A stretch of 64,000 nt of DNA from Lentinula raphanica (lineage: Eukaryota > Basidiomycota > Agaricomycetes > Agaricales > Omphalotaceae): contig JANVFP010000006.1 of assembly GCA_027919835.1 (NCBI GenBank), forward strand, positions 1-64,000, read 5' to 3'. The stretch's first letter is position 1; each line of letters begins with the position of its first letter. Positions 981 through 20,180 of the stretch are shown one piece after another. The notes under the pieces are model-generated. The model was not told where the DNA came from and did no database searches. It saw nothing but the letters and a program-made list of their open reading frames with translations. The translations under genes were made by a program, and so were the position numbers.

Positions 981-1674
981 GATAACGAGGATATGAAGGG
1001 TGCAATTTAATGCTTCGTTGGATAGATCTAATGACCTAGTGACTTTATCACTGAACACTGATCACCAATATACTTCTTATGTCGTTTGTCAAATGTATTT
1101 AAGCGAGGTGTGGGGCGTTGTCAGAGATTCCGCACGATCTTATACCTTAGAACGAACTGGTAGTCCTAAAAGATCTACTGGATCCGCAATACAGGTCAAC
1201 AGAGCGAAGTGACACGGAAGTACAGATCTTTTGATCTGGACTCGAAGGGGGTGAGTGATCCACTCAAAGGGTTTACAAGGAACGAGAGAACTCGTATAGA
1301 TCAGACTTTATGACCACACAAATACTATCAGAACCAGGTTGAAGATCTACTGATCACCGATCACAGGAAACCTTCACAGCTCGTATGGATCACCAATCAC
1401 CACACGTCTGCTTGAACAGAGCCACCGAAACTCTGAACGCTCACTTGGAACAACCGAGAACCAAGCCCTCTGTATCTCCACGATAGGAGTCTACCTTCGA
1501 TTCAAATCTAGCTGAGACTTTATCAACTGACAAGATATCGGGCCTAACGAGATGAGAATTTCACAACCACTTTCGAAGACCGCCCGGCTTACAAAGCCTT
1601 TACTCCTCACGTATGAGAGCAAAGGTTAGCTAGTCAGAGAAACTGGGCACAAAACCTGAATATATTTTTGTAGG
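981..1674 (-). mobile_element. LTR-like DNA of element A, part left of the KDZ insertion
   Basis: Non-coding DNA directly beyond the primer-binding site of element A and therefore its 5' LTR by position. It is rich in AGATCT/GATC words, as is the DNA right of the KDZ element at 19242-20167, so the two pieces may be one LTR split by the insertion. No clean TG...CA end is visible within this piece. Confidence 0.5.
1668..1674. repeat. Left target-site duplication of the KDZ element
   Basis: TTGTAGG sits immediately outside the left TIR, which starts CACTTCAGGC. The same seven bases follow the right TIR at 19235-19241. The next base on each side does not match. Confidence 0.8.
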
Positions 1675-2071
1675 CACTTCAGGCACCTACTTATGAAGAC
1701 CCACTTAGGATGAATAAAACCATCCCATGAATACCCCCTAAGGGGTACTTGGCCATGGGCACGACCAACATGGGATGCCCAAGTTGGGTATCCCAATGCC
1801 TTGGGTAGCCCATGGAGGGGCAGTCCACACTTTGGGCAGCCCTTAGATGGGTAGACCACCCACTTGGGCAGTCCACACTTTGGGCAGCCCTTAGATGGGT
1901 AGACCACTCACTTGGGCAGTCCATACATTGGGCATCCCCCAGATGGGTAGACCACTCACTTGGGCAGTCCACACCTTGGGCAGCCCTTAGATGGGTATCC
2001 CACTCACTTGGGCAGCCCACACCTTGGGTAGTCCAACTTGGGCAGTCCACACCTTGGGCAGACCAACTTGG
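1675..2071 (+). repeat. Left terminal inverted repeat of the KDZ element
   Basis: About 400 bp that match the reverse complement of 18825-19234. The outer 140 bp are unique sequence. The inner part is a run of degenerate short units such as TTGGGCAGTCCACACC and CCCTTAGATGGGTAGACC. Long open frames on both strands here (1626-2141) come from the repeat structure and are not genes. Confidence 0.85.
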
Positions 2072-2162
2072 AAATCCCATTGCCATTGTTATATTTATCT
2101 TCACTGCCTCACACATATTATACTGTCAAGGTTACCTTTAAAACTAAATGTATTCAAACCAG

Positions 2163-5100
2163 TTATACATCAACTTCATCTTCGGTATCATAAGCCTCTG
2201 TAAGATCTAATGCATCCATGCATTCTAAAAGCCCAAAGTCCAATTCTTCATCCTCTATCTCATCATATACTTCCCCATCCTCCTCCTCTTCAGCCTTCGA
2301 TATATAATCTGAGTCTATTTTTGCTGCTGCAATGCTTAAGTCTGTTTCTGAGGGACCCCATGGCAGGAGCTTGTAATCCGGTGGCAGACTGGAAAGTGTC
2401 CTTTCCCAAACCACACATAGGCGGCACATGTCTGAACGCCGTAGTTGTAGTTGATAAAGTATGTGTTTCTCTGTTTTAAAAGCATGTTAACTCCATTCAC
2501 TCGATCAAGCAGCAATGACATACCAGACTCATGTACATCCTCAATCGTCTTCTCAAGTAAGCTCCACTCTTCCGCAAACCATTCCCGCATTACTCGACGT
2601 TCATGAGTCAAACGGCGTAACTCTTCATCACACCGGTCACGAAGTAGAATACCTCGTATCCCAGTACGCACTTGATCGTCTCCCAGCCATGGAGGGACAT
2701 CGAACACGTTAGTGTTCTCATCCAGGCCTACGTCATCCCAGATAGAATCATCAACGTCGAATGTGAACAACTCTTTTGTTGGAATGCTCCGTGGGGCAAC
2801 GGCATGTCGCGGTGCATTTCCGCCTTGAATTAAGTTCGAAATCTTCACGCATAATTTGTTGTAAGTACGCGCCAAGGATTCAATACCAGGATCGCGTCGT
2901 TTGACCGCATCTGCAGTGTGAGCCTGTAGTCGACGTTCTGAACCTGTACATATCATGAAATATGAAGTCAACTTCAAACGCCCAAGCACAAAGCCACTCA
3001 CTACTGATTTGACGTCGGAATGACCGTTCCAAACGGTCACGTTCGAATTTCCTTGCTTTCAGTTTCTCTCGTAGACGGATCTTCACTGCTTTGGCATTAA
3101 GACGCGCGGCTATGAAAGGACTAGATGCCACCTTGCGATACTCTGCATTGGCTTCTATTCCAAGAGATCGTTCCTTCACCCGCAGATCTTTTTCTGCTTT
3201 CTGGAGTTTGGACTTCTGCCCATCAAGATCAGCTTGAGCTTCTTCTACTTCATAAGGCTCTGCGTCGAGGTCAGTAGCGATTGCTTCTAGTCGGCGGACT
3301 CGGTCTCTGAGGGTGTCTCTGACGTTTCGAAGTCGGACTGCATCCTGCGCTGCCTTCTTAGCTGCATTCAGAGATTGACCTGTGCGCAAATTTCATTTCG
3401 TGTATCTTTCAGGAAACGAATATAGATAGACGTACTTGGTAAAGGTCGCGTCTGATATTTCACCTGCTCTGCCCATTGGGCACGCAGGAAGTCAGGATTT
3501 TTCATTGAGAAATGCACATCCTTCTCGCCATCTATGCGTTTAGCCTCTGCGAGTTTCCACTTCCGAACAATCCATGTCGCTAGTCCCCACAGGCTTTCTT
3601 GATCAGCATGTTGAATTTGAGTATCAAGTGAATACAGGCGAAGATAGTGCTAAGGAAAAGATTGTAAGACTTGAGTTCAAGAATCCGCAGTGAAAGCACG
3701 TACACCACAAACTCGAAGATAAGGTACAAGTCTACTAATGGAATGCCAAAATCGCTCGCATCCTTCGCCGTCAGACAGCCCAAAGCCTTTACACTTGCGG
3801 GGGTGGTAGATGCATTGGCAGGCCCAGTTATGACCAAAGGCATGGAAAACGGAGATGGCGAATGCGATACGGGGTAGATAATCTTTGATGAAACCCCATT
3901 TGATGCAACTTCGCTCCAAGGAGCAGCCAATGTCATAGAGAAGTCCGACAGTATAAGACGTTGGGAGATGTTGAAATAGAGCGTCGATCAAAGCAAGTGC
4001 GTAGTGCTGTCGTTCACCGGGAGTCGTGATATTGACCAGCCAAAGTACACGATCGTGACGACACAAGAGGCCCATGAGACCGGTTGAGTCAAAGAACTGA
4101 GTACTTGCTTTGCGTCGGGCTCCGTCAGCAGCCGTGAAACTGCCTTCACAAGCATCCAGAACAGATTTTGGGACTCGAAGCGAACCTTCATACCCGTCAT
4201 CCTCTTCTTGGGTTTTCTTTGGCTTTGAAGTGGGATCTGTTGGGCGTACACTTTCCACGAAATGTTGCCAGGTAGCAACGTCAGACTCGGGGATGAATAC
4301 GGATCTGGGATGCTGCCTCTCTGGGTCCCGATGTGAACGTGCATTGTTCTTCTGTGTAAAGCAAGCGTCGAGACACACAATGCAAGATAGACTGACCAGA
4401 AAGTTTTTAGTTCATTTCCACGTTCAACAAATGACAACACTCACTCATTGTCCAAGGTACTAGTTCCACCAAAGCACAAAGGGCATCGCCGCCGCAGATA
4501 TTCACTAGGTTGTAACTTGGTATCTGCTTCATTTTCTCCCTCGGTAATGTGACGAGCGCGCTTGGACTGGCGATGATCATCAGCATCGTTGGTAGATGGC
4601 GTTGCTGGTGTCTGGGATGATGTTCTCGAGTCTTCGATCACACGATCGATGTACCGAGTAGCGACATCTTGTAAAGTATTAAACCATTGTAGAGCATTCG
4701 CAAAACGGCGACGCAGAGGATCCTAGAAAAAAAATCAATATAGGGTAGTATAGAGAGTATGCGTAACAGTGATCACCTGGCTATGCAGATGATATCCTTG
4801 ATTTTGGAGAAAATCTTGCAGCGCACTGCACCAAGCGGTGTTATTTGGAGAAACGCGAAGGTTCAGGCGTGTCACGAAGTCGAGGACTCTGAGATCCACC
4901 GCCAAAGACGGTTGTAGTGGTGCACATCCAAATAGGCCCAATTTCATGAGCTGGACGGCTGCAGGAAGACAAGAGCATATGCGAAGCTTCAAATGTTGCA
5001 ACTCTACTGCCAGTCTCAGTGATGCTCGATAATCTGAATACAATCATAATGCTTACCATGGAATCGCACTACCACGACCTTGAGCTCCCTCGGTTGACTC

Positions 5101-5582
5101 ATACAAACGCAATCCTCCAGAACTTCACCAGGCCGATCTGCCAAGTTACTGGAAGACTGGATATATTCTAGATATACCCGGACCAGACGAGGGATGGTTT
5201 CTTCAGACCATCGTTTGTACTGCGTAATGCGTTTGCGCCGATGAGTGGTTTCTGGGGGTGCAGGGGCAGTTGGCGTAAGTTGCAACGTCATGGTCTCTCC
5301 AGATTCATGTCGATGTTTTTTAGGCGTCGTAGGTTCCACGGTTTCAGATTCCGAGTAAGGGCGCATTCGGAAGCCTACTTGTCCTCGAGGAGTCGGAAGT
5401 GGAAAACGTTGAGTGAAAGATCCTCCAGCAGTGACAAAGAGCCCTGGAGTCGTTTCTTTGCCCCGTTTTGATGGCGAACTTGAACGCGAGCGACATCCTA
5501 TGAGGCTGTAGGACTCTTTGGTGGTGGCAACGGGGCTCTGATCGTTCGCTCGAAAATGTTTTGGAAGACGTGCACGAGACAT
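2163..5582 (-). CDS. KDZ transposase with N-terminal cysteine-cluster region
   Basis: A spliced minus-strand gene, the presumed mobility enzyme of the element. The ATG at 5582 starts a basic, serine-rich region. Next comes the cysteine-cluster part typical of KDZ proteins: YKRWSEETIPRLVRVYLEY, then CVC, and in the next exon CSC and LMKLGLFGCAPLQPS with AVDLRVLDFV. The catalytic part reads LDACFTQK (Asp, about 4369), LLYDIGCSLE (Asp, about 3934) and GEGCERFWHS (Glu, about 3757-3766), matching the expected D-D-E order of a RNase H-fold transposase. A coiled-coil-like, Arg/Lys/Glu-rich region (3380-3020) and a very acidic tail ending at 2163 follow. Apparent stops between exons fall in short GT-AG introns, for example near 4440. 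I see no disabling change. Exon limits are approximate. Confidence 0.85.
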
Positions 5583-5892
5583 GCTAGAGTAGGAGAGAGG
5601 AATACCAGTGGCGGTCGTGAGATGGTTGCCCCCGGTGGAGGACAATGAACGGTCTCAACCACCCCACCTGCTAGTTTAACGTCATTGCGGACGCGACATG
5701 TTAATGATCTTTATTGTTGGGCTTTACTTGTTCCGGCTCTGCGCAGTCGTGGTCCTCCAAGCAAACAACCACAGTAGAATATCACGGTCTCCAGCTTTGG
5801 ATTGTAAACGTTCGAAAACAGTTCATTTTATTTGGAAGTAGATGTAACATACAATCAGGAGTGTATTGTAAGATGAATCTACAACGCAATGT

Positions 5893-6978
5893 CTACTCTG
5901 ATTTTTTGGCTACATTGATACCATAATGGCAATTGATAAAATGATGGCAAGCTTGTCCAAAAATCTCGTTCGGGAGTGTGTATATCAAGTCAGACTCGCT
6001 CAACTCTTCTTTACCAAAGAGATGGTCAAATCGGTCAATCTTAACGGACCAGGACGACCAATCACTGATTTCCTTGAGTCGAATCACGAACTGCTGATGA
6101 ATTCCGTGAAAGCCTTCAGGATCGTGACGCAGAAGGAACTTCTCTAACTGCACCCAATTCTTGGAAGCATCAGTGGGTGGGATCCATGGGACGTAGTCAG
6201 GATGAGGCAGTGCACGATATTTGGGATGGTTCATCGGCCTGTCAGCAATACGAGCCAACGCCTCCATCTGTAACTCCATGCGATCTACAAGGCGTTGGGT
6301 CGCAAAAGGGTTGACAGTCTTTGATAAGGCAAGGAGCTCCTTTCGGATTTTGATCAACTTCGGGTAGTCACTGCAAGCCATCGTTTGGACCTCGTACTCG
6401 CTAGCTATGGCAGAAGTGTCGACCTTGGGCTGTCGGATACCAGCCATAACGTCGAGGAGAATCAGATGATCTTCGAAGGTAAGATCGCACATTGCCGGGT
6501 CACTAGGTGGTTCCCAACCAGCGAGAGGATGAGCGTGGGTGAGGGAACGCATGGTTGGTGCGGGTGAGGGTTTCATCAAACTTGGGCGCAATAGTGCTGA
6601 ACGGTTTCGCGAGGATGGAGTAGGTGAAGAGGGAGGAGGTGAGGAAGTGGGTGTGCCAGTCTGATTATCGTCGATGAACTCCGGTGACCGCAGAAGGTCA
6701 GTCCTTGCCTGTTTGCTCAATTTTGTCAACCTTCGGTGCAAAGGAGTTGACGTAGGAGCAGCCTTGGTCCCAAGAGCAGGATAGCCGATAATGGGGGAAC
6801 CGCGAACACGGTTCCTGGAGGACAGAGTAGGAGAAGAGGCAGCAGATGGATCGAAGTCGTCTTCGACAAACTGACGCCAGCCCACGGGCTTAGGCTTCAG
6901 ACGGTGAGGCCTACCAAACATGCTCGGATGTGGTTGCGGGGATGAGTGATAGCTCTTGATCGTTGGTTCACGAGGCAT
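5893..6978 (-). CDS. Hypothetical 361-residue protein in the KDZ element
   Basis: A single uninterrupted frame with a clear ATG at 6978. I do not recognise the family. The first half is low-complexity and basic (Pro, Ser, Arg, Thr). From about residue 160 it becomes ordered-looking, with stretches such as LTFEDHLILLDVMAG, RKELLALSKTVNPFATQ and HPDYVPWIPPTDASKNW. There are no membrane segments, signal peptide or cysteine clusters. It lies 310 bp upstream of the transposase on the same strand, so it probably has its own promoter and belongs to the element's gene set. An accessory DNA-binding or regulatory role is possible by position only. Confidence 0.6.
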   Translation of the reverse strand: MPREPTIKSYHSSPQPHPSMFGRPHRLKPKPVGWRQFVEDDFDPSAASSPTLSSRNRVRGSPIIGYPALGTKAAPTSTPLHRRLTKLSKQARTDLLRSPEFIDDNQTGTPTSSPPPSSPTPSSRNRSALLRPSLMKPSPAPTMRSLTHAHPLAGWEPPSDPAMCDLTFEDHLILLDVMAGIRQPKVDTSAIASEYEVQTMACSDYPKLIKIRKELLALSKTVNPFATQRLVDRMELQMEALARIADRPMNHPKYRALPHPDYVPWIPPTDASKNWVQLEKFLLRHDPEGFHGIHQQFVIRLKEISDWSSWSVKIDRFDHLFGKEELSESDLIYTLPNEIFGQACHHFINCHYGINVAKKSE

Positions 6979-7198
6979 TTCTATGCCAAAGGCAAGGGTG
7001 GTAAGTCACAGTTGGGTCGGGCTATAAATTCCACCTACCAAGAGGATGATGAACGTTGAGCAGGATCAGTCAGTGGCAATGTATGTTGCATTTTATAGTG
7101 GCATCGCTCCATTGTCCAAGCGGTGTGTGGTAAGACAAGCGTGGTTCCAACCTCGTTTCGGACATGCTATTGTGAGGCGCACTGGTGGTGAAAGAACT

Positions 7199-7517
7199 TT
7201 GGTCCAGCGTTCCAACGGCCAACGCTACGCAGTTTAAGGTCATGCAGGACCAGCTTCAAATGTGTTCGCACATGGACGTTGGTTTCTATCAGTTAGTACA
7301 TATATTGGTCCAGCATTCCAACGGCCAACGCTACGCAGTTTAAGGTCATGCAGGACCAGCTTCAAATGTGTTCGCACATGGACGTCGGTTTCTATCAGTT
7401 AGTACATATATTGGTCCAGCATTCCAATGGCCAACGCTACGCAGTTTAAGGTCATGCAGGACCAGCTTCAAATGTGTTCGCGCATGAACGTCGGTTTCTA
7501 TCAGTTGGTACATATAT
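7199..7517. repeat. Three tandem copies of a 106-bp unit
   Basis: The unit starting TTGGTCCAGCRTTCCAAYGG recurs at about 7199, 7305 and 7411, with only a few substitutions between copies. It lies between the 3' end of the Spt5-like gene and the start of the 361-residue orphan, so it may serve as part of that gene's promoter or as a spacer. Confidence 0.9.
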
Positions 7518-7605
7518 TCAAACATTAGAAATTACAAACTGTTATATAGATTATACCGAAAGATACAAGCTGTTATATGTAGATATTGTCTGATGAGAGA
7601 TACTT

Positions 7606-10600
7606 CTAAGTGTGTCCTAGCTTGACTATGCGTCCATGCCCATCGACGTCGTAACCGTTGGTATTTCCTCCCGCAGCTTTACGCACAATGCACATCATCT
7701 TGTTCCCAGCTTCAGAATCTGATCGTGACTCATGAACCATGACAAGCGCATTGCCCGGTATTCTCTTCAGCACCGGGTCACCATCATCAATCTCTACAGA
7801 GAATTGCTTTCTCCGCTCTGGGTGAAACTTCGGGCGCATTACCTGCAACACTCACAAATTTCCTTCCGCGAAGTAATTCGCCCGTCGGACAAGCTTCCCT
7901 GTATGTTCGCCTTCACATATGATGTAAAGACCACTCGCCGAATGACCCTTCGTGACTTTACTGCATCGAGGATTGGAAAGAATAGCTCTTGGATCCACTT
8001 CCCGTGTTGCGACATTCACTTTGAGGCCTCCTACATGACTGTCCTGAGTAGATACCACAACTTCACCACTGGACCCGATGTGCAAAGCAACCCGAACTGC
8101 ATCCTTCTCAGAACGAACATTTACCCATATATCTCTTCCCCCAAGACCTTGGCAAATACGACGATCCAGAATCCAGTGCTTTGGTGGCAGAGGAGCAGAA
8201 GCCGATGAAGATGAAGATGAAGCATATGGGTTTGGTGTACGAGAGCTTGGATCCCATGCGGGAACACTGTAGTCAAAAGCTGTCCAATGTCTCATTGGTG
8301 TACGACTGCCATCTGCTGATTCAAGCGGAAGAGGTGTGATTGGGGTTTCATTTTCTTGGTGCCGAGGTATGTAACCCATTCGCAAGTTGAAATATGAGCT
8401 GGTCTTCTTGGTGAAGCTGGATTCATGAATGAACCCGCCGTTATCCACCCGTCGCAGCTGATCATAATCATACCACTCTTCGAGGTTGCCGACTAATGAA
8501 GGAGTTTGGAATCGAATGAGTACAAGAAGGCCACTCTTTGTGTTTTTCCAGTCAGATTTTACATCCAACACCATGCCCAAATATCCCTTCCGTTCCCCAG
8601 TGATTGGTTTGACCTCCTGATGCAGCCAAGGTATTCGTCCGGTGTACTCTGTACGAGGAACTGTGCCTTCAGTCACTAGATAACCTAGTAGCGTAGAGCG
8701 AATAGTGGGATTGACAAAGGAGATCATTTGATCGATGGAAGAGAGTGTAGAAGTATCCGCTGCGTTACGGTTTTGGAGTCGTCTCAGGTCAAAACGGTTC
8801 ACTTCACGGGATATGAAAGAATCGGCCAGTTCGGCTAGGTCTGCCTTCTGGTCGAGGTCTCCAATCTTCTGGATTGCCAAAAGATAGGGTTTGAGAGCGA
8901 TGGTAGCCCCCAAATTAGACGTCTTGGGTTGAAATCCAGATTCCAGACCAGAAAGTTCTGCAGATCCTGCTACCTCTTGTACAGAGTTGGGATGAACGGT
9001 GCAGATGGAGTTGATATCGGTCAACCAGACCTCGATTTCATGCAATTTGACCTTGGTGACGAGTCCAGTTTTACCTGCTGGGTTGATTTGTTCTTCGTTG
9101 AGTGTTGAAACTCCAGAGTAGCCCAGCTGTTCTCGAGTGCGTAGCACGACAGATGGAGTGTGAGGAGAGAGTTCCACAATCTGACCCAACCTCCACTTTT
9201 TCCGCAAATGACGTTTGAGAACAGATATGTTGGCCTGGCTGTGTGAAAATAGAACCTCACACTCCAACAACCCATCCTTTTGAATTATTCCCTGCTCTCC
9301 TGTCTTCACCTCTCCAAGTCCCGACCCTTCTGGAACGTAGACGACAGTCTCACCCGCAAAGAAAGACCATGTACGCGAAGGGGGTAGACGACTTTGTTGC
9401 ATATCTGGAATAGGGTACTGCAAAAACCTCTTTAACGTTAAATCATCGATGCTCTCAGCGATCTTGAGATCAGACAACGGATGTCGCACAAGTGCGAGGC
9501 CACCACGTATGACCACTTTATCAAACATGAAGCGCTTCCGGTAGTGTGGTTGATGTTGGCATGTGAGAGGAGTTTCGCATTGCTGAGAGCACCTAGCTTC
9601 AAAGGTGACGTCCTTGAGTTTAGGGTTACAAGAACAAAACGATTTCCATTGAACTTCCAGATTCTTTTCGAAGTCGAAGTGGAAGATGAGCTGAGGAGGC
9701 CGTTTGATGTTTCGATATTTGGCAGATACAGTCATTTTAGGAATTCGGGGTTCAACTGGGAGCGGGAATCCCGCCTCTTCGAAGTCTGGTAGCTCGAAGC
9801 GAGACTCGCGCGCAGTTGGAGTACTCTGGTTATACACCTCTTCTGAAGTAGTCTGGGACTGGCGGGATGGTTCGGGGTCAGAGGACTTGAATGGATAGAG
9901 AGGGTGGTTTTTGCTAAAGTTCGGACGGGGTATGAAGAGTACCAAACACTCTGTACTTTCATCAATCTCATCAAAATCATCGAACACCACCAGTCCCATA
10001 TCTCCCCGATACCTACCCTTCGTAGGCACCACCCAAGTCCCCGGTCGAAAAGTAGTAGCATAGAACCTCCGTTGAGAATCTTCAGTGCCCGAAAGATCAT
10101 CCACCAACGTGTGAAGGGGCATTCCAAGACCGAGCCTATCCCACTCCTCCCACAACTGTGATATCGTGGACGGAGGATCGTCGAGGGTGGCCGGGCTTAC
10201 AGAGATTCTTTTGCCACGGGGATAAATGAGGTCCGGTATAAGATTGAGATACAATGCTAGCGGTACATTCCCAGGTAACATGCTGCGCGTTTGAAGGTAA
10301 AATCCGCCAGGAAATAGCGAGATGAACGCGGCGCGAATGAGATTGAGAGGGATTGTTTCGGAGGCAATATCATCGTTGATGCGTTTCACTATCGCTCGTT
10401 CAAAACCCCTCTAAGTAAAAAGAATCAAATTGAATCTCGGAGTGACGAACGATAGATGTTAAGTAGGGTCATACCTTACAGCGAACATGATATACATGAT
10501 AATGGAATGGCCCCGATGTCAGGACGTGATGGTCTTTGCTCCTCTGTCATGTCGAACGCATTGCCCTCGAACTCCTCATCGTCATCATCACCGTTGTCAT

Positions 10601-12557
10601 TGTCGTCGTCATGTTCATCGGTGGCACTGAAAGAAAAGTTCAATGAAGACTCAAACTAATCAAAGTGTTATTGTACATACGTTTGGCCAGAAGGAAGGTC
10701 TGCCATGATATAGTCTCCATCGCCGTTGTTCGGAGATGACACTTGCACGGGGTCAACATCCATTGGAACACCCCCGTCAATGTCAACATCGATTGCGATC
10801 GGATGAGCCGCACTCCCAGCAGCAGTCACGGATTTCGCCTCAACATCATCGATAACGATTATAGTCGGATCTCCAGACGATGTAGTAGGAGGAAGAGGCG
10901 AAGGAGTTGAGCCACGGTCGTGACGAAAGAATCCACCTTCACGCTCCCTATATTCATAGCCCGGTGGGCATAATGAAGAATCATCAGCATACCAAGTATC
11001 GTCAACTAGCGTGAAGTATTTGCTATTCGGCTCCCAGAAATTCGTCGTGGGTGGGGGTAAAATCCACAATGGGAGGTCTGGAGGAGGAGACACTCGCGAC
11101 ATATGTTGAGACGGTTTGAGCTGTGCAGATGATACTTGCGGAGCCCCGGAATACGATGGATGTGCTGTAGTAGCATTAGAAGATAAACCTCCGGTGCCCT
11201 CTGTAGAGGTAGACGGAGGAGGCGCAGGATATGGCATTTTCGCTTCAGAAGTAAAATCTCCTGAGGCATTCGAAGACGAAGGAGGAGCGGGACGTGATAC
11301 ATTCGGCATGTTCGCTTCAGGTGCTGCAGGAGTTACATCTCCTGAGCCCTCGGAAGACAGAGAAGAAGGAGCAGGAGGGGCGACGAAAGCCGGAGGTGCA
11401 GGAGAGGGAGGACATGGTATGTTCGCTTCAGGTGCTGCAGCAGTTACATCTCCTGAGCCCTCGGAAGACAGAGAAGAAGGAGCAGGAGGGGCGACGAAAG
11501 CCGGAGGTGCAGGAGAGGGAGGAAATGGTAATTTCGCTTCAGGTGCTGCAGGAGTTACATCTCCTGAGCCCTCGGAAGACAGAGAAGAAGGAGCAGGAGG
11601 GGCGACGAAAGCCGGAGGTGCAGGAGAGGGAGGAAATGGTAATTTCGCTTCAGGTGCTGCAGGAGTTACATCTCCTGAGCCCTCGGAAGACAGAGAAGAA
11701 GGAGCAGGAGGGGCGACGAAAGCCGGAGGTGCAGGAGCGGGAGGAAATGGTATGTTCGCTTCAGGTGCTGCAGCAGTTACATCTCCTGAGCCCTCGGAAG
11801 ACAGAGAAGAAGGAGCAGGAGGGGCGACGAAAGCCGGAGGTGCAGGAGAGGGAGGACATGGTATGTTCGCTTCAGGTGCTGCAGGAGTTACATCTCCTGA
11901 GCCCTCGGAAGACAGAGAAGGAGTAGGAGGGGCGAAAGACTGGTACTTCACTTCAGGAGCTGCAGGAGTTACATCTCCTGAGCCCTCTGAAGACGGAGGA
12001 GGGCCAGGAGGAAGGGAGGAAAGCACACTTGGTGCAGGAGCGGGAGGCGATGGCATTTTCGCTTCAGGAGCTGCAGGAGTTACATCTCCTGAGCCCTCTG
12101 AAGATGCAAGAGGGGCCGAAGGGACAGGTGATTCGATTTTCGTTCCAGGATCGGACCTGGAGTCTTCATAGCGTGTTGAAGACGAAGCATACGTGGGGAG
12201 AGCAGGCGGGGGTGGGGTTTTCTCGGGCAAGATTTGCGATGGGGGAGGCGAGGGTGATAGGGAAGACCTGGGAAGGGGACGGATTTTGCGACGTGGAGCT
12301 GATTTCGCCGGTTCGATTGTGTTCTGTTCCGTTGCGTTGAGTCGTTTCTCCCAACGAGACACCACGTCTTCTAGCATGGTCTTCTCCTTCCGATCTCTGA
12401 GTTGAACGCTCTCCGCCTTCTGACGTGCACGCTCTGCCTCTTCCCGAGCCGCCAACTCCTCATCATCATCATATTCGTCACCCCAATCCAATTCCTCCTC
12501 CTCTGCTTCATCGAGAATAAAAACCTGACGTTCGACGTCTCGAGTGTTGTCAGCCAT
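7606..12557 (-). CDS. Spt5-like KOW protein with proline-rich repeats, carried by the KDZ element
   Basis: A large spliced gene starting at the ATG at 12557. The N-terminus is acidic (EEEELDWGDEYDDDEE) with a charged helix. Next is a proline/alanine/serine region of 37-residue tandem repeats. After an intron near 10670 comes an acidic exon containing EEFEGNAFDMTEEQRPSRP. A second intron leads into a region with an NGN-like look and several KOW-like segments: GTWVVPTKGRYRGDMGLVV (about 10040), GETVVYVPEGSGLGEVKTG, KGYLGMVLDVKSDW, and near the C-terminus EGEHTGKLVRRANYF. A final short intron near 7850 joins the last exon, ending at 7606. The layout recalls transcription elongation factor Spt5 and related proteins abundant in mushroom genomes. 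What it does for the transposon is unknown. Exon joins at 10680-10390 are the least certain part. Confidence 0.7.
11310..12100 (-). repeat. 111-bp coding minisatellite in the Spt5-like gene
   Basis: Copies of a 111-bp unit encode about 37 residues each, built on SSEGSGDVTPAAPEA plus a PPSPAPPAFVAPPAP linker. Adjacent central copies (for example 11411, 11522, 11633) are almost identical. The outer copies are shorter and more diverged, as expected for slippage or unequal exchange. A 351-codon frame on the opposite strand here is only a shadow. Confidence 0.9.
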
Positions 12558-12805
12558 CGTTAAACAAACGTTACCACCTAGAGATAACGAAGTTCGTCAG
12601 CATGAGTTGCAGCGACATGATCTCTTTTCGCGTTATTCAACATTTCACTCAATTTTGCTTCTCAATGTGGGCCTTTAGCCGTCTTTACTTCACTCACGGT
12701 TGCGCTAACGATGTCGATCATGTATTCAAAGTGACTTAAGACCGATACTACTCTACTGTATCTTATACCGACGCAATGACCGACGAAATTGGACTTACCC
12801 CCGCA

Positions 12806-13093
12806 CAGCGTTGGTGATAGTAACGAAAAGAAAGAAAAAATGGTTACGTAATACAAACGAGGGAAAGTTGAAGCCTGCCGAACTAGCAAAGTGTTGCTCA
12901 TCGCCGAAGTAATGGTTACGTAATACAAACGAGGGAAAGTTGAAGCCTGCCGAACTAGCAAAGTGTTGCTCATCCCAGAAATCATGGGACTTCGGCGATG
13001 AGCAACACTTTGCTAGTTCGGCAGGCTTCAACTTTCCCTCGTTTGTATTACGTAACCATTTTTTCTTTCTTTTCGTTACTATCACCAACGCTG
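12806..13093. repeat. Perfect 105-nt-arm palindrome between the two gene arms of the KDZ element
   Basis: Bases 12806-12910 are exactly complementary to 12989-13093. The 78-nt spacer contains a further direct copy of 64 nt of the left arm (12911-12974). Each of the three copies carries the 8-bp palindrome TTACGTAA (12844, 12916, 13048), a word resembling bZIP sites. It lies 250 bp upstream of the Spt5-like start and 1.25 kb upstream of the acidic gene. Confidence 0.9.
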
Positions 13094-14341
13094 TTCGTCT
13101 GACGACGGCGAAGAGGCTTTCTTCATCGTCGTCAGACCTCTCTTACCTTCTCTACTCGCTAGCTCTTGCTGCTCAACGCTGTGACTGACAACGGCGAAGC
13201 AGTTCTCTCCCACCTGGTTTGATTCGTTCACCGACATCATATATTCTCTCTCAACTCCTCCATTCGTTCTCCTTTCACCGATACCGCGACATCGCTCATC
13301 GTCCTGCTCAATTCCCCACCGTCTCAGCATCAACGACTGCAAATCAATCTCTCCGCCTCGTGAACCGTAACTTCCTGGTTACATAGCCAGCGAACGTGTA
13401 GAGGAGGAGGAGGAGAAACAGCAGGGACAGGTGTACTCTTTACCCGACAGGACGGTTTGCTCGATAGCTCTACGTCTACGTCTTTCGGATGTTGTCAACG
13501 GTATATCTGGTTGGTATAGTTCTGCATCAGGTACGTAGCCGATAGACCTTACGGATTCGAGAATTTTGTTAAACCTCACAGCAGATCACAGTCTTCGTTG
13601 AAGAGGCAGCATGCTCCTCCTTTCCTGCACCCGCTCTTCCCATGTGCAAAGCGTAGACCACACGGCCTACACAAGCTTTGTTGAAGCTTTCGAAAGTCCA
13701 AATCACTCACATCGTCAAGGCCTCATCCTCCTACTACTACTTTCTCATAGGACGATTCTCATAAGATCTAATAGAGTAACTCAGTCTCGGGGTACGTATG
13801 CTGAACTCTACGATACGTGGGCTACACTAAAATCGCAGAACATCCAAGGTTCCGGTTGTCAAACTGGTTGTCGACAGGATCTGATGAACATCATCTCAAC
13901 TATCGGGACCTCGCTGTGTTTTCCTGCGAGGGCTTTTTTCGTGTAGTCGTTGTAATATAATCGTCCTTGTTTAAAATAGTCGTACTCGCATGCTGTAGTA
14001 TTTCCGTCAATATACACTGAACTCGTTATAAAAATGAAGAACTCGTTATAAAATTAATGTGTGTTATCAGTCGGCTGCCCAAATAAGACACGGTGCGGCT
14101 GCTGCAAGGTCGCTGGCGGTTGAGTGAAGAACGATAGAACATACAGCGTCCCAAATGACGTTAGAACAATGGAGCGTCCGAAACGACGTTAAACTACAGT
14201 GTGGTGTGGCCCTTTGACGCGAATCAACAATAGCAAGGGCCTTTCGCTAGCGTTGTTGAACAATGGTGTGGTCTTACGACGAAAATCAATAATGGGAGCA
14301 AGACAAGAGCCTCCATCTACTCCTTCACCCAAATTTCCATC
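13094..14341. other. Right part of the divergent intergenic interval
   Basis: No gene could be supported. There is a short direct repeat, GAACTCGTTATAAAA, at about 14021 and 14039, which could be promoter-related. Small frames at 13611-13946 (plus) and 13379-13579 (minus) are discussed separately or rejected. Confidence 0.5.
13379..13579 (-). other. Small unassigned frame with a CPCC motif
   Basis: A 66-codon minus-strand frame without an ATG start, encoding NKILESVRSIGYVPDAELY followed by an arginine run, EYTCPCCFSSS and a stop. The residue choice looks more protein-like than its surroundings, so it may be an exon or the remnant of a captured gene. No partner exon was found and the family is not recognised. 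Confidence 0.2.
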
Positions 14342-17300
14342 ATGCCACAAACTAGAGCAAGGACGCGCGCTCAAACAAGAGCTCTGGTGAATCAAGACTC
14401 GACGAACGATCAGCAGTCGACGAACGCTCAGCAGGCGTCGAACGCTCAGCAGGCGTCGAACGCTCAGCACACGTCAAACGCTCAGCACACGTCGAACGAC
14501 CAGCACACGTCGAACGACCAGCAGGAGACAACTGGAGGAGGTAAATCCAACTATCAATGAGTGTTAGTACACCTGCTGATGTTGAACTTTTGCCGCAGAG
14601 ACTGTGATTGCTACTGAGGTGGTTAACAGCAAATCAAAGAAGAAGAAGAATGCCGGTTCGTCTCATAGTATTGTGCTCAACATATTGACTGGCGCTGAAT
14701 GTTGAATGTCGACAGTGGCATCGATTGGCGGTGAAAAGGTCGGGAGCAAATCCAAAACAAAGGGAAAGGGCAAGGTTAAGGGTAAGAAGAAGACAGCAGA
14801 CTCTGTGAGTGAATCCTTGTTCAGCTACATCAAGTACTGCTGGCTGACAGCACTTTCTCAGAAAAGTAGCGCAGAGAAGAACACATCGCGTCCACTGATT
14901 TCGCCCCGCAAATCCACGTCTTTGGACATTGCGCTGAGAGTCCCTCCACCAACGAAGAAAACCGGGTATGCATCATGATTAACGAGTCTTCGTCATACTA
15001 ACTCCTGAATGTTCATCAGCCGTACAGACCACGATCCCACCTTCGTAGAAGCTTTTGCTGTTTTACGAACTTTCTTGACGTCGAATATGACGCTCCCTCA
15101 AGCTCAAGAAGCATTGGACTCTTTATTCGGCCGTCCGGTTTCGGAGGAGCACCCCTGGTGTGGCTTGCTCAGCAAGATTACCAGCGTTGAGGACGAAGAA
15201 GGGATGGCTGATATTCTCAACGAGCTCGACTCCTTGTCGAAGGTGCCCCAGGCTAGCACGGGGGGTCATTCTGTTGATGGTATCCACAATTCAGTTGTTG
15301 TCCCTGCCCATGCGCCGGTCCAGGACGATATCTCGAACCCAGAATCCAAGTCTCGCGGCAACTCTCATCGCACTGCCTCTCCTTCGGCGGCCGTTCATCG
15401 TAACATCCCTTCACCACGCAGCCCTACCCATGCACCTCCAGAAGAGTTGTCTTTTGATCCTGAAGGGGATCTGTTCAATTTCGAGCTCGAAGAATTCGAT
15501 GAAGAAGACCGGGAGCTACTGGAGGCTGTAAATGAAGACATCTACCTCGATGCAGACAGATATTCTGCGGCAGCCGTCTGCGATAAGCTTGCAGCGGATA
15601 GCGTCTGGCATCAACTAAACGACGGCCTTTACGATGCAGCGCAAACGGCAGTGCTATACCAAGAAGATCTACCAAGATCTACAGCCCCTGCGGAGCTCCG
15701 CGCTATATCTCGAACCAACGACTTCGATCATTATCAACTTCTGAGAGACACGGCGCGCACCGATTGGGCACAAATACGCGAAAGCTATCTAGAGGAAGAG
15801 TTGAGACCTGCATCGCCAAAGTCGTTATTCGGAGATTCCAACGAAGAGGCCATAGATCGAGATATCTCAAATTCCCCGAAAGCCTTGGTGGATTATGCTT
15901 CCAGTACCTATGATCCAAACGGAGACTTCGATGAAGAAGATTTCGCTGGGGACAATAACGGTGACTTCGGCTACCCAGAGAATAATGATGAAGAGGAAGT
16001 GGACGAGGAGGACGGAGAAGGGGTGGAAGAGGAGGACGGAGAAGGGACCTACAAGGAGGACATTGAAGAGGACGACGACGAGGAGGTAGATGAGAACGAG
16101 GAGGTAGATGAGAATGAGGAGGTAGATGAGAACGAGGAAGGCAGCGATGAGGGAGAGGGGACTAACAAAGCCGGACAACTGCCCCGAGTCGTCAAAGAGG
16201 AGCTACGCAAAGTACAGGAGGAGTACGAAGAGAAGGTTGCAGCCATAGCTGCTCGTGCAAAGAAAAACGTCCATACCTGCTGGCGTTATCTTGACGAAAA
16301 GACCAGTACCCCTCGGGAACTCACTGCGTTCAACGCATTCGAATCGTGGTACCGTGTCCACGGTGACGTGAAGCCCTCAGATGAAGGTAAGCAAGGTTTT
16401 ACATGAACGAGGGGCAATACGGGTCTGATAATTCCAAACATTGAAAGGCGTAACAAATTGGGCTGGCTTTGTTGCCGCCCGGTATGCTGCAATCCTAAAA
16501 GAGAAGCTTCCACCAAAAGATCAGAAGAACGAAGCTCTGGCTCGCGAAGTGTTTGCCAAACAGATAGAATGGTACGAATCGCAACACGAAGCATTTGTGA
16601 CCGAAAAGAAAGGAAAAGGGAAGTTGGGCCGCACCGTGAAATCAATGCTGCAGCCTTTGTATGCAATTGTAAGTGCCCTCAGTATCGGTATGTTGCCTCG
16701 TCTAACACCTGGTAGGGGAAGCAACTATATCGGTACACCGGTGCACATCTATTGGGACATGTCATCATCACAGACCATGATGTCGAAGGCAAAAGGCAAA
16801 GTTTCAGTTGGGGGTGCTCGTCAATCGTGCAGCAAGTGATCACAGCTCATGCGGTTGATTTGAGATCCCAGTTGACCGACATAGAGACACTGATCAGGTA
16901 AGTCTTCTGTTTGTTCAACGTCCCATGAAATCAATGAGTATGTACAGGATGAAGGAGATGAAACAGCGAGGAGTGGATCCTAAACTGGCAGAATTAGCGG
17001 TTACCTGCAGCAAGAAGGCTGGCAAGTCAGGGAGAGACAGAAACCGCAAAGCAATAAGGGCGATCTTCTCTTATGATGTCGGTGAGTAATCCAGATGTGT
17101 TTATGAAGAGATCGAACGGTGTTGATATAAGTGTATAACAGAGCGCGTTCTCAACGAAGACCCCAAAAATGACTTGACGCCAATGCAATTCGTAAGAAAT
17201 GCATATCGGTATCATGTGCGCATCATCAATTGGCCGGTGGACGTTCCCTTCTTCAAAGCGGGTGTGGAAAGCATCCACAAGATGACATCGCCAGACCTGT

Positions 17301-18689
17301 GCAAGGTGGCCTTACCACGTATTGCGCAAATTTTCGAGGAGGCGCAAACTGAAGTGTCAGAAAAGATGGAGAGAAGAGCGTTAGAAGAGGCGGCAACACA
17401 GAAGGGCTTCGAAATCATATCGTGGGATGAGGGTAAGTGGTCTTTACCTTCAAGCCATGAAATAAGGGTGTTAATGAACCGTTGGCCTTGTATTAGATGA
17501 AATGAAAATGGACCTCGAAGAGCAAGCTACTCTACCCATCGTTGAAGACACCGACGGCAATGTCATCGTTACGGTGTCATACTCTGAACTTTATCAGGAG
17601 GAGGTGGGAATAATCAATGAAGACGTTGCTTCGAACGACAAAGATCAGGGGGGCAACGAAAGCGACGCCAGCGACCGTTCACATTTCCAACCCCTTTTCC
17701 TTGATAATACCTCCCCACCCCCCTCTCCAGACAGCGAATCAGATGCCGTCGTACTCAATCGGTGGTATGAAGAGCCAGATTCTAGCAAACTTAACCGTTC
17801 TCGTTCTGGACATACGAAGCACTTTCCACAACGCTCTGGGCCGCAAGCTCGGGTGGTGCCAGCTAAACGACAAACGTTGAAGAATTCTTCAAATGCAACA
17901 AGTTCACATGAAGAACGTCAAACAGCTCCAATAGTTCCGGCCCAACGTCAAACGATGCTGTCGACGTTGAGGGAGACTCAACAACCAGGTTTACATAAAC
18001 GACTGAAGCCTCCGGCTTTTTCTGCCAAACATGCGATGATAGGGTCAACATCGCACGTCTCTCAAAATGCTCCTCCATTACACCTACGCAACAGACAGGC
18101 TCCGCCACTCCATGCCCGAAGTTCTATACAACAAAGAGCGGGAAGAACAGGTCCGGTAGTGGACGAACGGAGGGATGAACGAATTGCTCGGAGCGGTGGA
18201 CCAGTTGATCGACGGGATGAACGAGTTATTCCGAGGGATGAACGAGTTGATCGACGGGATGAACGAGTTGTTAGGAGGGATGAACGAGTTGTTAGGAGGG
18301 ATGAACAAGTTGATAGGAGGGGTGAACGAGTCAAACGAAGGGACGAACTCGCTATACGAAGAGGTCAGGAAACTCTCGGGGACGTGTCTAGGAGGGATGA
18401 ACGAGTTGTTAGGAGGGATGAACAAGTTGATAGGAGGGGTGAACGAGTCGTTAGGAGGGATGAACAAGTTGATAGGAGGGGTGAACGAGTCAAACGAAGG
18501 GACGAACTCGTTATACGAAGAGGTCAGGAAACTCTCGGGGACGTGTCTAAAGCAGGTACAAAAAGAAAGACACCTCTGTCTAACATCGACGATCCTCCTC
18601 CTGCGAAGCGCTTGAAGGCAAATCCTCTTCCAAAGCGTTCACAGATGACCATGAACAAATCGAAGGGGGCAGGGTTCGTGAAGAGATAG
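14342..18689 (+). CDS. Large acidic hypothetical protein in the KDZ element
   Basis: A spliced plus-strand gene. The ATG at 14342 opens a region of six-residue repeats of the SNAQQT type. Small lysine-rich exons follow (SKSKTKGKGKVKGKKK). A long exon from 15056 begins TDHDPTFVEAFAVLRTF and becomes extremely acidic (15900-16160). Around 16300-16640 is the best-ordered part: ELTAFNAFESWYRVHGDVKP, then WAGFVAARYAAILKEK and QIEWYESQHEAF, which has the length and spacing of an HMG-box-like or similar helical module. Further exons lead to a DER/RRDE-repeat region and a basic tail (KRKTPLSN, PAKRLKANPLPKR) ending at 18689. Introns have good branch points, for example CTAAC at 14998. I do not recognise the family. 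Nuclear location is likely from the basic signals. Confidence 0.6.
14399..14525 (+). repeat. 18-bp coding repeat
   Basis: Seven or so copies of an 18-bp unit like CGAACGCTCAGCAGGCGT encode a Ser-Asn-Ala/Asp-Gln-Gln/His-Thr/Ala hexapeptide near the N-terminus of the acidic protein. Confidence 0.85.
18160..18565 (+). repeat. 21-bp coding repeat (RRDERV type) with a larger internal duplication
   Basis: Degenerate units such as GGAGGGATGAACGAGTTGTTA encode runs of RRDERV/RRDEQVD. A larger block ending GQETLGDVS occurs twice (about 18270-18390 and 18410-18546), so a cassette of several units was itself duplicated. The repeats encode highly charged, probably unstructured or helical protein. Confidence 0.85.
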
Positions 18690-18824
18690 AAACATTTGAT
18701 AGGTTCACTTTTAACTATCCACATACAACTCACATTCTTTATATCTTTTGGATGTACGAAAAACAAACTTTAATATCATATTATTCATTATTCATTACAT
18801 GCAGGAGTGAATGAGTACTTTAGT

Positions 18825-19234
18825 CCCAGCTGGTCTGCCCAAGTGGGTCTTCCCATGTAAGGGCTGCCCAAATTATGGACTGCCCAAGGTGTGGACTGCC
18901 CAAGTTGGACTACCCAAGGTGTGGGCTGCCCAAGTGAGTGGTCTACCCATCTAAGGGCTACCCAAGGTGTGGACTGCCCAACTGAGTGGTTTACCCATCT
19001 AGGGGATGCCCAAGGTGTGGACTGCCCAGGTGAGTGGTCTACCCAAGTGAGGGTCTGCCCATCTAAGGGCTGCCCAAGGTATGGACTGCCCATCCATGGG
19101 CTACCCAAGGCATTGGGATACCCAACCTGGGCATCCCATGTTGGTCGTGCCCATGGCCAAGTACCCCTTAAGGGGTATTCATGGGATGGTTTTATTCATC
19201 CTAAGTGGGTCATCTGAGGTAGGTGCCTGAAGTG
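18825..19234 (-). repeat. Right terminal inverted repeat of the KDZ element
   Basis: Reverse complement of the left TIR. The outer unique part is about 90% alike, and the inner short tandem units match with small rearrangements. It ends GGTGCCTGAAGTG at 19234, followed by the TTGTAGG duplication. Confidence 0.85.
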
Positions 19235-19241
19235 TTGTAGG
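19235..19241. repeat. Right target-site duplication of the KDZ element
   Basis: TTGTAGG, identical to 1668-1674. Confidence 0.8.
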
Positions 19242-20167
19242 CTACGTCCTTAAGTACTTCTACGAAGAGATCTGTAGCCAATTTACTATTTTATGGAATA
19301 GATCTATAGATTTGAGAGAACGGAGTCCGAGATCTGATACAAATAAGGAAAGATAGGACGAGAAACGATACAAACACCAGAGAAACAGAGAGTAAAAGGG
19401 ATAAAAACAAGTAAAATGTCCATTTCGGGTGGTCCTTCGTCGAGATCTAGTTGCCTGACCTTCGAATCCGGACCTGGTCTGTGCGTCCATCCACATGCTG
19501 GTGGTTAAAGGGCACGGATAAGCTCCTGCACAGGTAACTCAAACGTTTCCTCATTTGATTCCACTATGTGAACGGTTGTATGCCTCTCCAACTGAATGGG
19601 AGTACATATAAAGGGGGGAAACCTGTCCCAATAGGTTCGTTTGGCTTCTAGCTTTCCAACGATATGCATATATCGAATAGATCCAGAGGTTTAACAATGG
19701 TGAAGTCGAAAGATCTACCCTTGCAACACTCCTGGTCAAAGCTGTACATCTCAGGCGTCTATTTCCCATCTAGGAAACGTCCACATGTAACTGGGATGCT
19801 ACACTTTGGTTGTTTCTCCGTTTAGTCACATTCCTGCGACCTGATCCATCCTGAAACTCGATCTAAGTGAACAGATCTGTTGAGTCTGGGCCTTGAATAA
19901 TCCATCCCCACTGGTAATACGAATAGATCTATTGGTTCTAAGCTCGTCTCGGTGCAGTATCATACTCAGTTGGCCGTTAGGCGTTGAAAACTAAGTTGAT
20001 AATCCCTTGATAGCTCATATCAGAGGTGGCTTTGTCTTGAAGGACTCCCCGACCAAGGGACTCGAGTGTTAACTCTTATTATTCGTCAGGATGTGTTTTC
20101 CTGTCTTGTATTTGACGTCCTGGCATTAACATGATACAAGTTTGACTGTCAGCTCGGGCTCACTACA
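19242..20167 (-). mobile_element. LTR-like DNA right of the KDZ insertion
   Basis: Non-coding, AGATCT-rich DNA. Read on the minus strand it starts TGTAGTGAGCCCGAGC at 20167, a plausible LTR start, 13 bp beyond the pol stop of element B. It is either the 3' LTR of B or the upstream part of the LTR of A. It does not match the DNA beyond B's primer-binding site at 27958 onward, so I favour A inserted next to B's pol end, but this is not proven. Confidence 0.45.
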
Positions 20168-20180
20168 GTCCTTTAGTACT

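Follow-up and report, generated by a model that had tools for sequence, protein, structure and literature searches.

Our analyses of a 64,000-nucleotide stretch of the Lentinula raphanica genome (contig JANVFP010000006.1, positions 1 to 64,000; in the following, the window) showed that positions 1675–19234 are a complete KDZ-type DNA transposon of 17.6 kb, bounded to the base. The element holds a KDZ transposase gene, two further open reading frames, ORF2 and ORF4, and a gene related to the transcription elongation factor Spt5, ORF3. Because these four genes recur together in two other copies of the element and appear to be under purifying selection, they look like element genes rather than cargo. 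With moderate confidence, we propose a structurally complete KDZ transposon with four genes of its own, in which the Spt5-like family would act in RNA polymerase II elongation on behalf of the element's own genes.

Ends, insertion site and genes of the element

A perfect 7-bp target-site duplication, TTGTAGG, lies on both sides of the element, and the end sequences CACTTCAGGCACC and GGTGCCTGAAGTG each stand beside it. The outer arms of the terminal inverted repeats (TIRs) measure 183 bp each and agree at 95% of positions; inward of them, tandem repeats of 16- and 48-bp units follow (Table 1). We also found a paralogous empty site: when the two flanks were joined in a script, they aligned to DNA of C26 with 98.66% identity over 2,009 bp, with three gaps and unbroken across the junction. 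The base-exact bounds proposed in an initial annotation of this DNA are hence borne out by the inverted arms, the duplication and the empty site. The last 200 bp of the left flank gave 114 candidate matches in the genome; the 40 that were scored, the window among them, all match at 100% identity. The right flank contains a 1,928-amino-acid reading frame with reverse transcriptase, RNase H and integrase zinc-binding domains. It follows that the element entered a high-copy Gypsy-type retrotransposon, and that the insertion is probably recent. Flanking host genes in synteny with relatives, which the initial annotation had named as an observation that would speak against a transposon, are not what borders the element, since both flanks belong to the retrotransposon.

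Transposase, ORF2 and ORF3 lie on the minus strand and ORF4 on the plus strand, so that the gene models reproduce the two divergent arms with four genes described initially. Mechanical splice models were used at first for all four genes. The transposase model has exons at 5057–5582, 4777–5006, 4445–4722, 3704–4391, 3436–3649, 3002–3379, 2524–2943 and 2163–2470; its frame is open throughout, in keeping with the intact transposase that had been expected. The product carries a KDZ domain (Pfam PF18758, E 1e-59, 202 bits at a cut-off of 26.6) and a CxC1 domain (E 4.4e-7), and its motifs CLDACF, YDIGC and GEGCERFW contain candidate acidic residues. The ORF4 model was refined with the closest public homologue, which yielded 1,278 amino acids with no internal stop; the earlier model had missed one intron. 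ORF4 has neither a match to a Pfam family nor a recognisable DNA-binding domain, and its profile found no credible match in the PDB. For ORF3 and ORF4, structure prediction with AlphaFold gave unusable models, with a mean predicted local distance difference test score of 29.8 and 36.2, respectively. Public homologues, six for ORF4 and four for ORF2, are all named L. raphanica. Judging from their reading frames, transposase, ORF2 and ORF4 are apparently intact in the window copy.

Table 1. Features of the KDZ element and of its insertion site, in window coordinates
Feature	Position	Strand	Remarks
Target-site duplication, left copy	1668..1674	.	TTGTAGG
Outer TIR, left	1675..1857	+	starts CACTTCAGGCACC; 173/183 identical to right arm
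Subterminal tandem repeats, left	1818..2071	+	48-bp and 16-bp units
KDZ transposase	2163..5582	-	8 exons, 1013 aa, open in mechanical model; Pfam KDZ, CxC1
ORF2	5893..6978	-	single exon, 361 aa; other copies 94, 64, 41% identical
Three 106-bp tandem repeats, left module junction	7199..7516	.	identity to C26 ends at 7266, in the first repeat
ORF3, type-B Spt5-like (KOW) gene	7606..12557	-	mechanical model; proline-rich repeat N-terminus
Long palindrome	12802..13097	.	109-bp outer arms, 99%; 244 bp 5' of ORF3 start
Right junction of the module differing from the C26 copy	14164..14164	.	just 5' of ORF4
ORF4	14342..18689	+	10 exons, 1278 aa, open, homology-guided model; no Pfam family
Subterminal tandem repeats, right	18831..19110	-	
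Outer TIR, right	19052..19234	-	inverted match of left arm
Target-site duplication, right copy	19235..19241	.	TTGTAGG

A gene set shared between copies

Both ends could be resolved in five copies: the window element, a copy at C26 640–27896, a second one nested in it at C26 11802–19196, and two in C14, one small (C14small, 1117828–1122161) and one large (C14b, 1228242–1244951). All five have identical 13-bp ends and perfect 7-bp duplications, and thus show the defined ends with a target duplication that mark a KDZ transposon. A single end, from a truncated copy, was seen in C28, and C30 holds fragments.

The C26 copy (27.3 kb) carries transposase, ORF2 and ORF4 in the window's order, with an Spt5-like gene of another type, type A, between them; its ORF2 is 94% identical to that of the window. 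C14b (16.7 kb) likewise has the complete set of four genes, arranged as in the window, at 43–81% identity for pieces of the transposase, 35–57% for ORF2 and 41–45% for ORF4. The search for further copies with the same gene set and duplications, suggested along with the initial annotation, was therefore successful in two cases. Loci beyond these two keep transposase, Spt5-like gene and ORF4. Exon matches in the genome number at least 8 for ORF2, at least 54 for ORF4 and at least 97 for the transposase; the ORF4 matches group into 17 loci, 12 of which have a listed KDZ match no farther than 12 kb away, against an expectation of about 5%. ORF2 and ORF4 had been described as orphans, a label that no longer applies to proteins that recur in other copies of the element.

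Two copies lack most of the genes between their TIRs, which the initial annotation had regarded as evidence against a gene-bearing element. The nested C26 copy (7.4 kb, with its own 7-bp duplication) contains a truncated transposase and ORF4, and C14small (4.3 kb) has ORF4 alone between its TIRs; the main part of C14small is 95.5% identical to the nested copy, and its ORF4 has one stop in the codon comparison. Both look like internal-deletion derivatives, and we read them in this way. C14b also holds a 135-amino-acid Hsp70 fragment (L058 2288–2698, Pfam E 4e-55), placed between its Spt5-like gene and ORF4.

Ratios of nonsynonymous to synonymous substitution rates (dN/dS) point to purifying selection on each of the four genes, as far as they could be calculated. 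The transposase gave 0.165 against C26 and 0.084 against C14b, and ORF2 0.36 and 0.345, with the C14b comparisons of both genes near saturation (dS 1.6–2.0). One exon of the type-A Spt5-like gene gave 0.135. For ORF4, we obtained 0.457 against C26, 0.299 against the nested copy and 0.265 against C14small, and with the core exons alone 0.502 against C26 and 0.312 against the nested copy. The near-saturated comparisons weigh against our interpretation, as does the fact that ORF4 of C14b yielded no ratio. The same holds for C27, a sixth locus. It contains transposase, a type-A Spt5-like exon and ORF4; its arms are weakly similar in self-comparison (67.5%), and neither the family's 13-bp ends nor a duplication nor an ORF2 match was found there.

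ORF2, ORF3 and ORF4 might alternatively be host genes that were caught by chance and have no role in transposition. The Hsp70 fragment in C14b shows that capture happens, and the middle module, which differs between copies (see below), that modules are exchangeable; moreover, ORF2 was not found in C27, and 36 of the 70 loci with an Spt5-like gene lie well away from KDZ matches. However, C26 and C14b keep the same genes, order and divergent layout, dN/dS stays below 0.51 in all computable comparisons, and one clear host Spt5 gene sits elsewhere (C42, PF03439, E 7.5e-23). We hence consider passenger genes quite improbable. Host-gene cargo as the principal explanation was discarded on the gene set common to three copies and on purifying selection: of the four-gene cargo initially annotated, the four genes stand, and the word cargo calls for revision.

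The Spt5-like gene, its probable exchange and its palindrome

ORF3 occurs in two types, type A in C26, C14b and others, and type B in the window. The link to Spt5 is strong for type A. A two-sequence profile of type A matched the NGN domain and the following KOW region of Schizosaccharomyces pombe Spt5 with an E value of 7e-11, and a single type-A exon did so with 2.4e-9. With the Pfam Spt5-NGN model, type A scored 23.1 bits in C14b, above the cut-off of 22.4, and 18.8 bits in C26, below it. Type B is connected indirectly, by a profile–profile alignment with type A that spans 562 columns at 22% identity (probability 98.7%, E 3e-16); as a negative control, ORF4 against type A reached a probability of 0.4%. 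Type B has 17 public homologues, distributed over L. raphanica, L. detonsa, L. guzmanii and Gymnopus androsaceus; a source name beginning with "Chromatin elongation f..." is attached to four of them or more.

Searches with the window's own ORF3 speak less clearly for Spt5. Its best KOW match in Pfam, KOW5_SPT5, has an E value of 0.015 and remains below the cut-off; no direct NGN match was obtained with Pfam or, by phmmer, in the PDB, where phmmer returned nothing at all for ORF3 at E ≤ 10. The three best PDB matches of the type-B profile (A2) were all SPT5, at E values of 0.56–2.1 that are not significant. In addition, the gene is apparently disrupted by a frameshift. The mechanical model has exons at 10681–12557, 10480–10626, 7856–10408 and 7606–7810, and relative to the closest homologues the frame changes around position 10,536 in exon 2: these homologues have a short stretch absent from the window, and the frames before and after this point differ. 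The model is open only via other splice sites that skirt the frame change. An Spt5-like KOW protein, as annotated initially, is thus supported indirectly, through type A, and weakly so for the window's ORF3, with its apparently broken frame. Towards the N-terminus, the gene contains a 111-bp coding tandem repeat of 5.7 copies (11308–11935) with proline/alanine-rich units.

The type-B gene sits in a module that sets the window copy apart from its relatives. Window positions 1675–7266 are 95.3% identical to C26 DNA and positions 14164–19234 are 92.0% identical; the 6.9 kb in between hold the Spt5-like gene and a long palindrome and differ, being type B in the window and type A in C26. Here, the matches seen between the DNA of the two copies are pieces of the 106-bp repeat and one 69-bp stretch (window 13,364–13,432 and C26 21,499–21,563, 82.6%, E 6e-12). 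In their best exon stretch, the relatives of the window transposase in C26 (88%), C2 (89%) and C14b (79%) are all accompanied by type A. The nearest type-B genes are found at C14 586307 (81%), beside a transposase 67% identical to that of the window, and at C11 1377113 (80%), more than 100 kb from all listed KDZ matches; C30 contains a transposase fragment (87%) together with a type-B fragment. The window copy is therefore a mosaic, and in the simplest reading its lineage would have received the type-B cassette by recombination.

Each of the four elements that hold an Spt5-like gene and were read (window, C26, C14b and C27) has a long palindrome 5' of this gene. The arms agree at 98% in C26 (10485–10698) and at 92% in C14b, 241 and 133 bp from the respective model starts, and at 97% in C27, 1,275 bp from the first matching exon of type A. 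In C26 and C14b, the gene and the transposase share a strand; in C27 they are on opposite strands, yet the palindrome is again 5' of the gene. In the two resolved copies without an Spt5-like gene, no palindrome with arms of at least 45 bp and more than 80% identity was detected. In single-strand folding, the window palindrome reached −146.7 kcal/mol (z −27.7). One of its arms also matches C11 at 1382.0, C14 at 583.9, C24 at 684.8 and C36 at 430.3 kb, each time 2.0–6.9 kb from a type-B exon and on its 5' side; both arms were seen in C11, C14 and C36 and one in C24, and the C14 match, when read, was palindromic at 83%. The window palindrome and those of type A have only a 14–15-bp stretch in common. 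Other inverted structures in the 179.5 kb scanned were four with 54–67-bp arms and a large one beside the truncated C28 copy (C28:243001–273000, concatenated positions 17196–20324), whose two arms overlap, measure about 2.4 kb and are 87.5% alike.

KTF1 of plants is a relative of Spt5. According to the excerpt of the source considered, it acts with RNA polymerase V in DNA methylation (PMC10229537). One may hence imagine that a hairpin transcript of the palindrome feeds small-RNA silencing and that the Spt5-like protein works in a KTF1-like manner, limiting copy number or silencing rivals. The long palindromes 5' of the gene in each of the four elements would fit such a module. Yet the three type-A palindromes, with 99.6% of cells paired and pairing values that none of 500 shuffles reached, changed in another way: of 87 pairs, 52 are invariant, 32 changed on both sides and only 3 on one side, as G–U type changes would be. 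These few one-sided changes suggest arm-to-arm conversion at the DNA level and not selection on an RNA, and we deem a self-limiting silencing module unlikely.

As another possibility, the Spt5-like protein and ORF4 could bind element DNA, at the palindrome and at the 16/48-bp end repeats, and help to assemble or target the transposase complex. ORF4 is retained in the smallest copy, C14small, with its perfect duplication, and in the nested C26 copy, and the palindrome stays 5' of the gene in both cassette orientations. The small copies may nevertheless be deletions that were moved in trans, ORF4 of C14small contains the stop mentioned above, and the lack of a recognisable DNA-binding domain in ORF4 also speaks against such a cofactor, to which we give a rather low probability.

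We instead favour a role in transcription, a function that the initial annotation had likewise proposed for the Spt5-like protein. The transposase would move the element by cut and paste, and the Spt5-like family, with its putative NGN and KOW regions, would act on elongating RNA polymerase II. It would most likely keep the long, intron-rich genes of the element expressed, or resist silencing, after insertion into repeat-rich DNA; by analogy with bacterial NusG paralogs such as RfaH, which do so for xenogenes, the protein may control elongation of element transcripts or counteract silencing. ORF2 and ORF4 may be transposition or regulatory partners, and the palindrome a cis element that travels with the Spt5-like gene. 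Since its own Spt5-like gene is probably disrupted, the window copy may rely on proteins of other copies.

Genome-wide, 70 Spt5-like loci of types A and B were counted. KDZ matches listed are found within 12 kb of 29 of them, with 3.5 (about 5%) expected, and within 20 kb of 34. For the remaining 36, the nearest listed KDZ match is more than 20 kb away, which argues against too close a tie: the Spt5-like gene is not confined to these elements. Among these 36 are loci in C8, C39, C4, C18, C40 and C61, and seven lie within 12 kb of a locus similar to the TET/JBP dioxygenases; the distant loci may belong to another transposon type. Seen from 110 KDZ loci, 30 have an Spt5-like neighbour within 12 kb, 31 a TET/JBP-like one, 2 have neighbours of both kinds and 51 of neither kind (Fisher p 0.0017). 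Loci that arose by transposition do not count as independent, however, and the contig pairs C10/C64 and C3/C60 appear to be duplicates, so that p-values for co-location overstate the case.

The TET/JBP-like label stems from a gene in the C26 element (L011 484–2600, 94 genome matches) with an HxD...H pattern that we assume to be dioxygenase-like; Pfam and the PDB gave nothing for it. It was dropped as a family gene, as its nine closest other matches are all farther than 20 kb from the listed KDZ matches (the nearest, C11:547971, starts at a distance of 20.6 kb). Its presence in the C26 copy is possibly a separate insertion.

Relation to known systems

Among described elements, the TET-positive Kyakuja transposons of Agaricomycetes (Kojima 2025, PMC12730594) resemble the window element, according to the excerpts considered, in the KDZ transposase, 7-bp duplications, 5'-CA..TG-3' ends and a mushroom host. 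They differ in that a dioxygenase gene lies inside the element, whereas none of the 94 matches of the C26 gene falls in the window element, which has an Spt5-like gene, ORF2 and ORF4 instead; the main text of that report contains no mention of KOW or Spt5. No TIRs are reported there for two Kyakuja families of Laccaria, in contrast to the 183-bp outer TIRs (95%) seen here, and for this reason we file the element as KDZ and not as Kyakuja. KDZ1–KDZ3 of Cryptococcus neoformans, of about 9–11 kb, share with it a transposase with KDZ and CxC1 and the presence of TIRs (241, 139 and 169 bp). Their duplications, however, are of 8 bp (KDZ1) or 4–8 bp (KDZ2 and KDZ3) rather than 7 bp, and the parts of the report considered describe the transposase alone (PMC12810828).

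With Spt5 and plant KTF1, type A appears to share an NGN domain and a KOW-type region. The ORF3 family differs in being transposon-borne and in the far divergence of type B from type A. A bacterial analogy is provided by RfaH, LoaP and ActX, diverged paralogs of a universal elongation factor, some of them plasmid-borne or within operons that they regulate. RfaH and related NusG paralogs are described, in the excerpts seen, to activate long xenogenic operons, and RfaH is recruited via a short DNA hairpin, ops, while other NusG paralogs are encoded in the operons they regulate (PMC7593976, PMC7819879). The likeness is an analogy only, as these systems are bacterial and the ops hairpin is short compared with palindromes of 151–296 bp here. 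As a long shot, a specialised Spt5 paralog encoded by these eukaryotic transposons and its 5' DNA or RNA hairpin might together act as an autonomous switch for elongation or against silencing, much as RfaH/ops or LoaP do in bacteria; the cassette of gene and palindrome would be inverted and exchanged between elements as a unit.

Among the open-licence papers searched, no transposon encoding Spt5 was named in the titles and abstract beginnings shown, and no paper among the search results shown combined KDZ and Spt5. Within this scope, a recurrent transposon-borne Spt5-like gene and a long palindrome on its 5' side appear to be undescribed. Some transposons carry TET/JBP enzymes, which are thought to counter DNA methylation, as stated in the excerpts of PMC12730594. 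An Spt5 relative on a transposon, with some tens of loci in this one mushroom genome that seldom neighbour TET-like genes, would offer a second way of remaining expressed, at the polymerase. Spt5 keeps the transcribing polymerase moving, and a relative of it on the element suggests that such transposons may carry what they need to stay transcribed. These loci would also provide a natural set of Spt5 relatives with candidate cis elements that can be tested in laboratory fungi.

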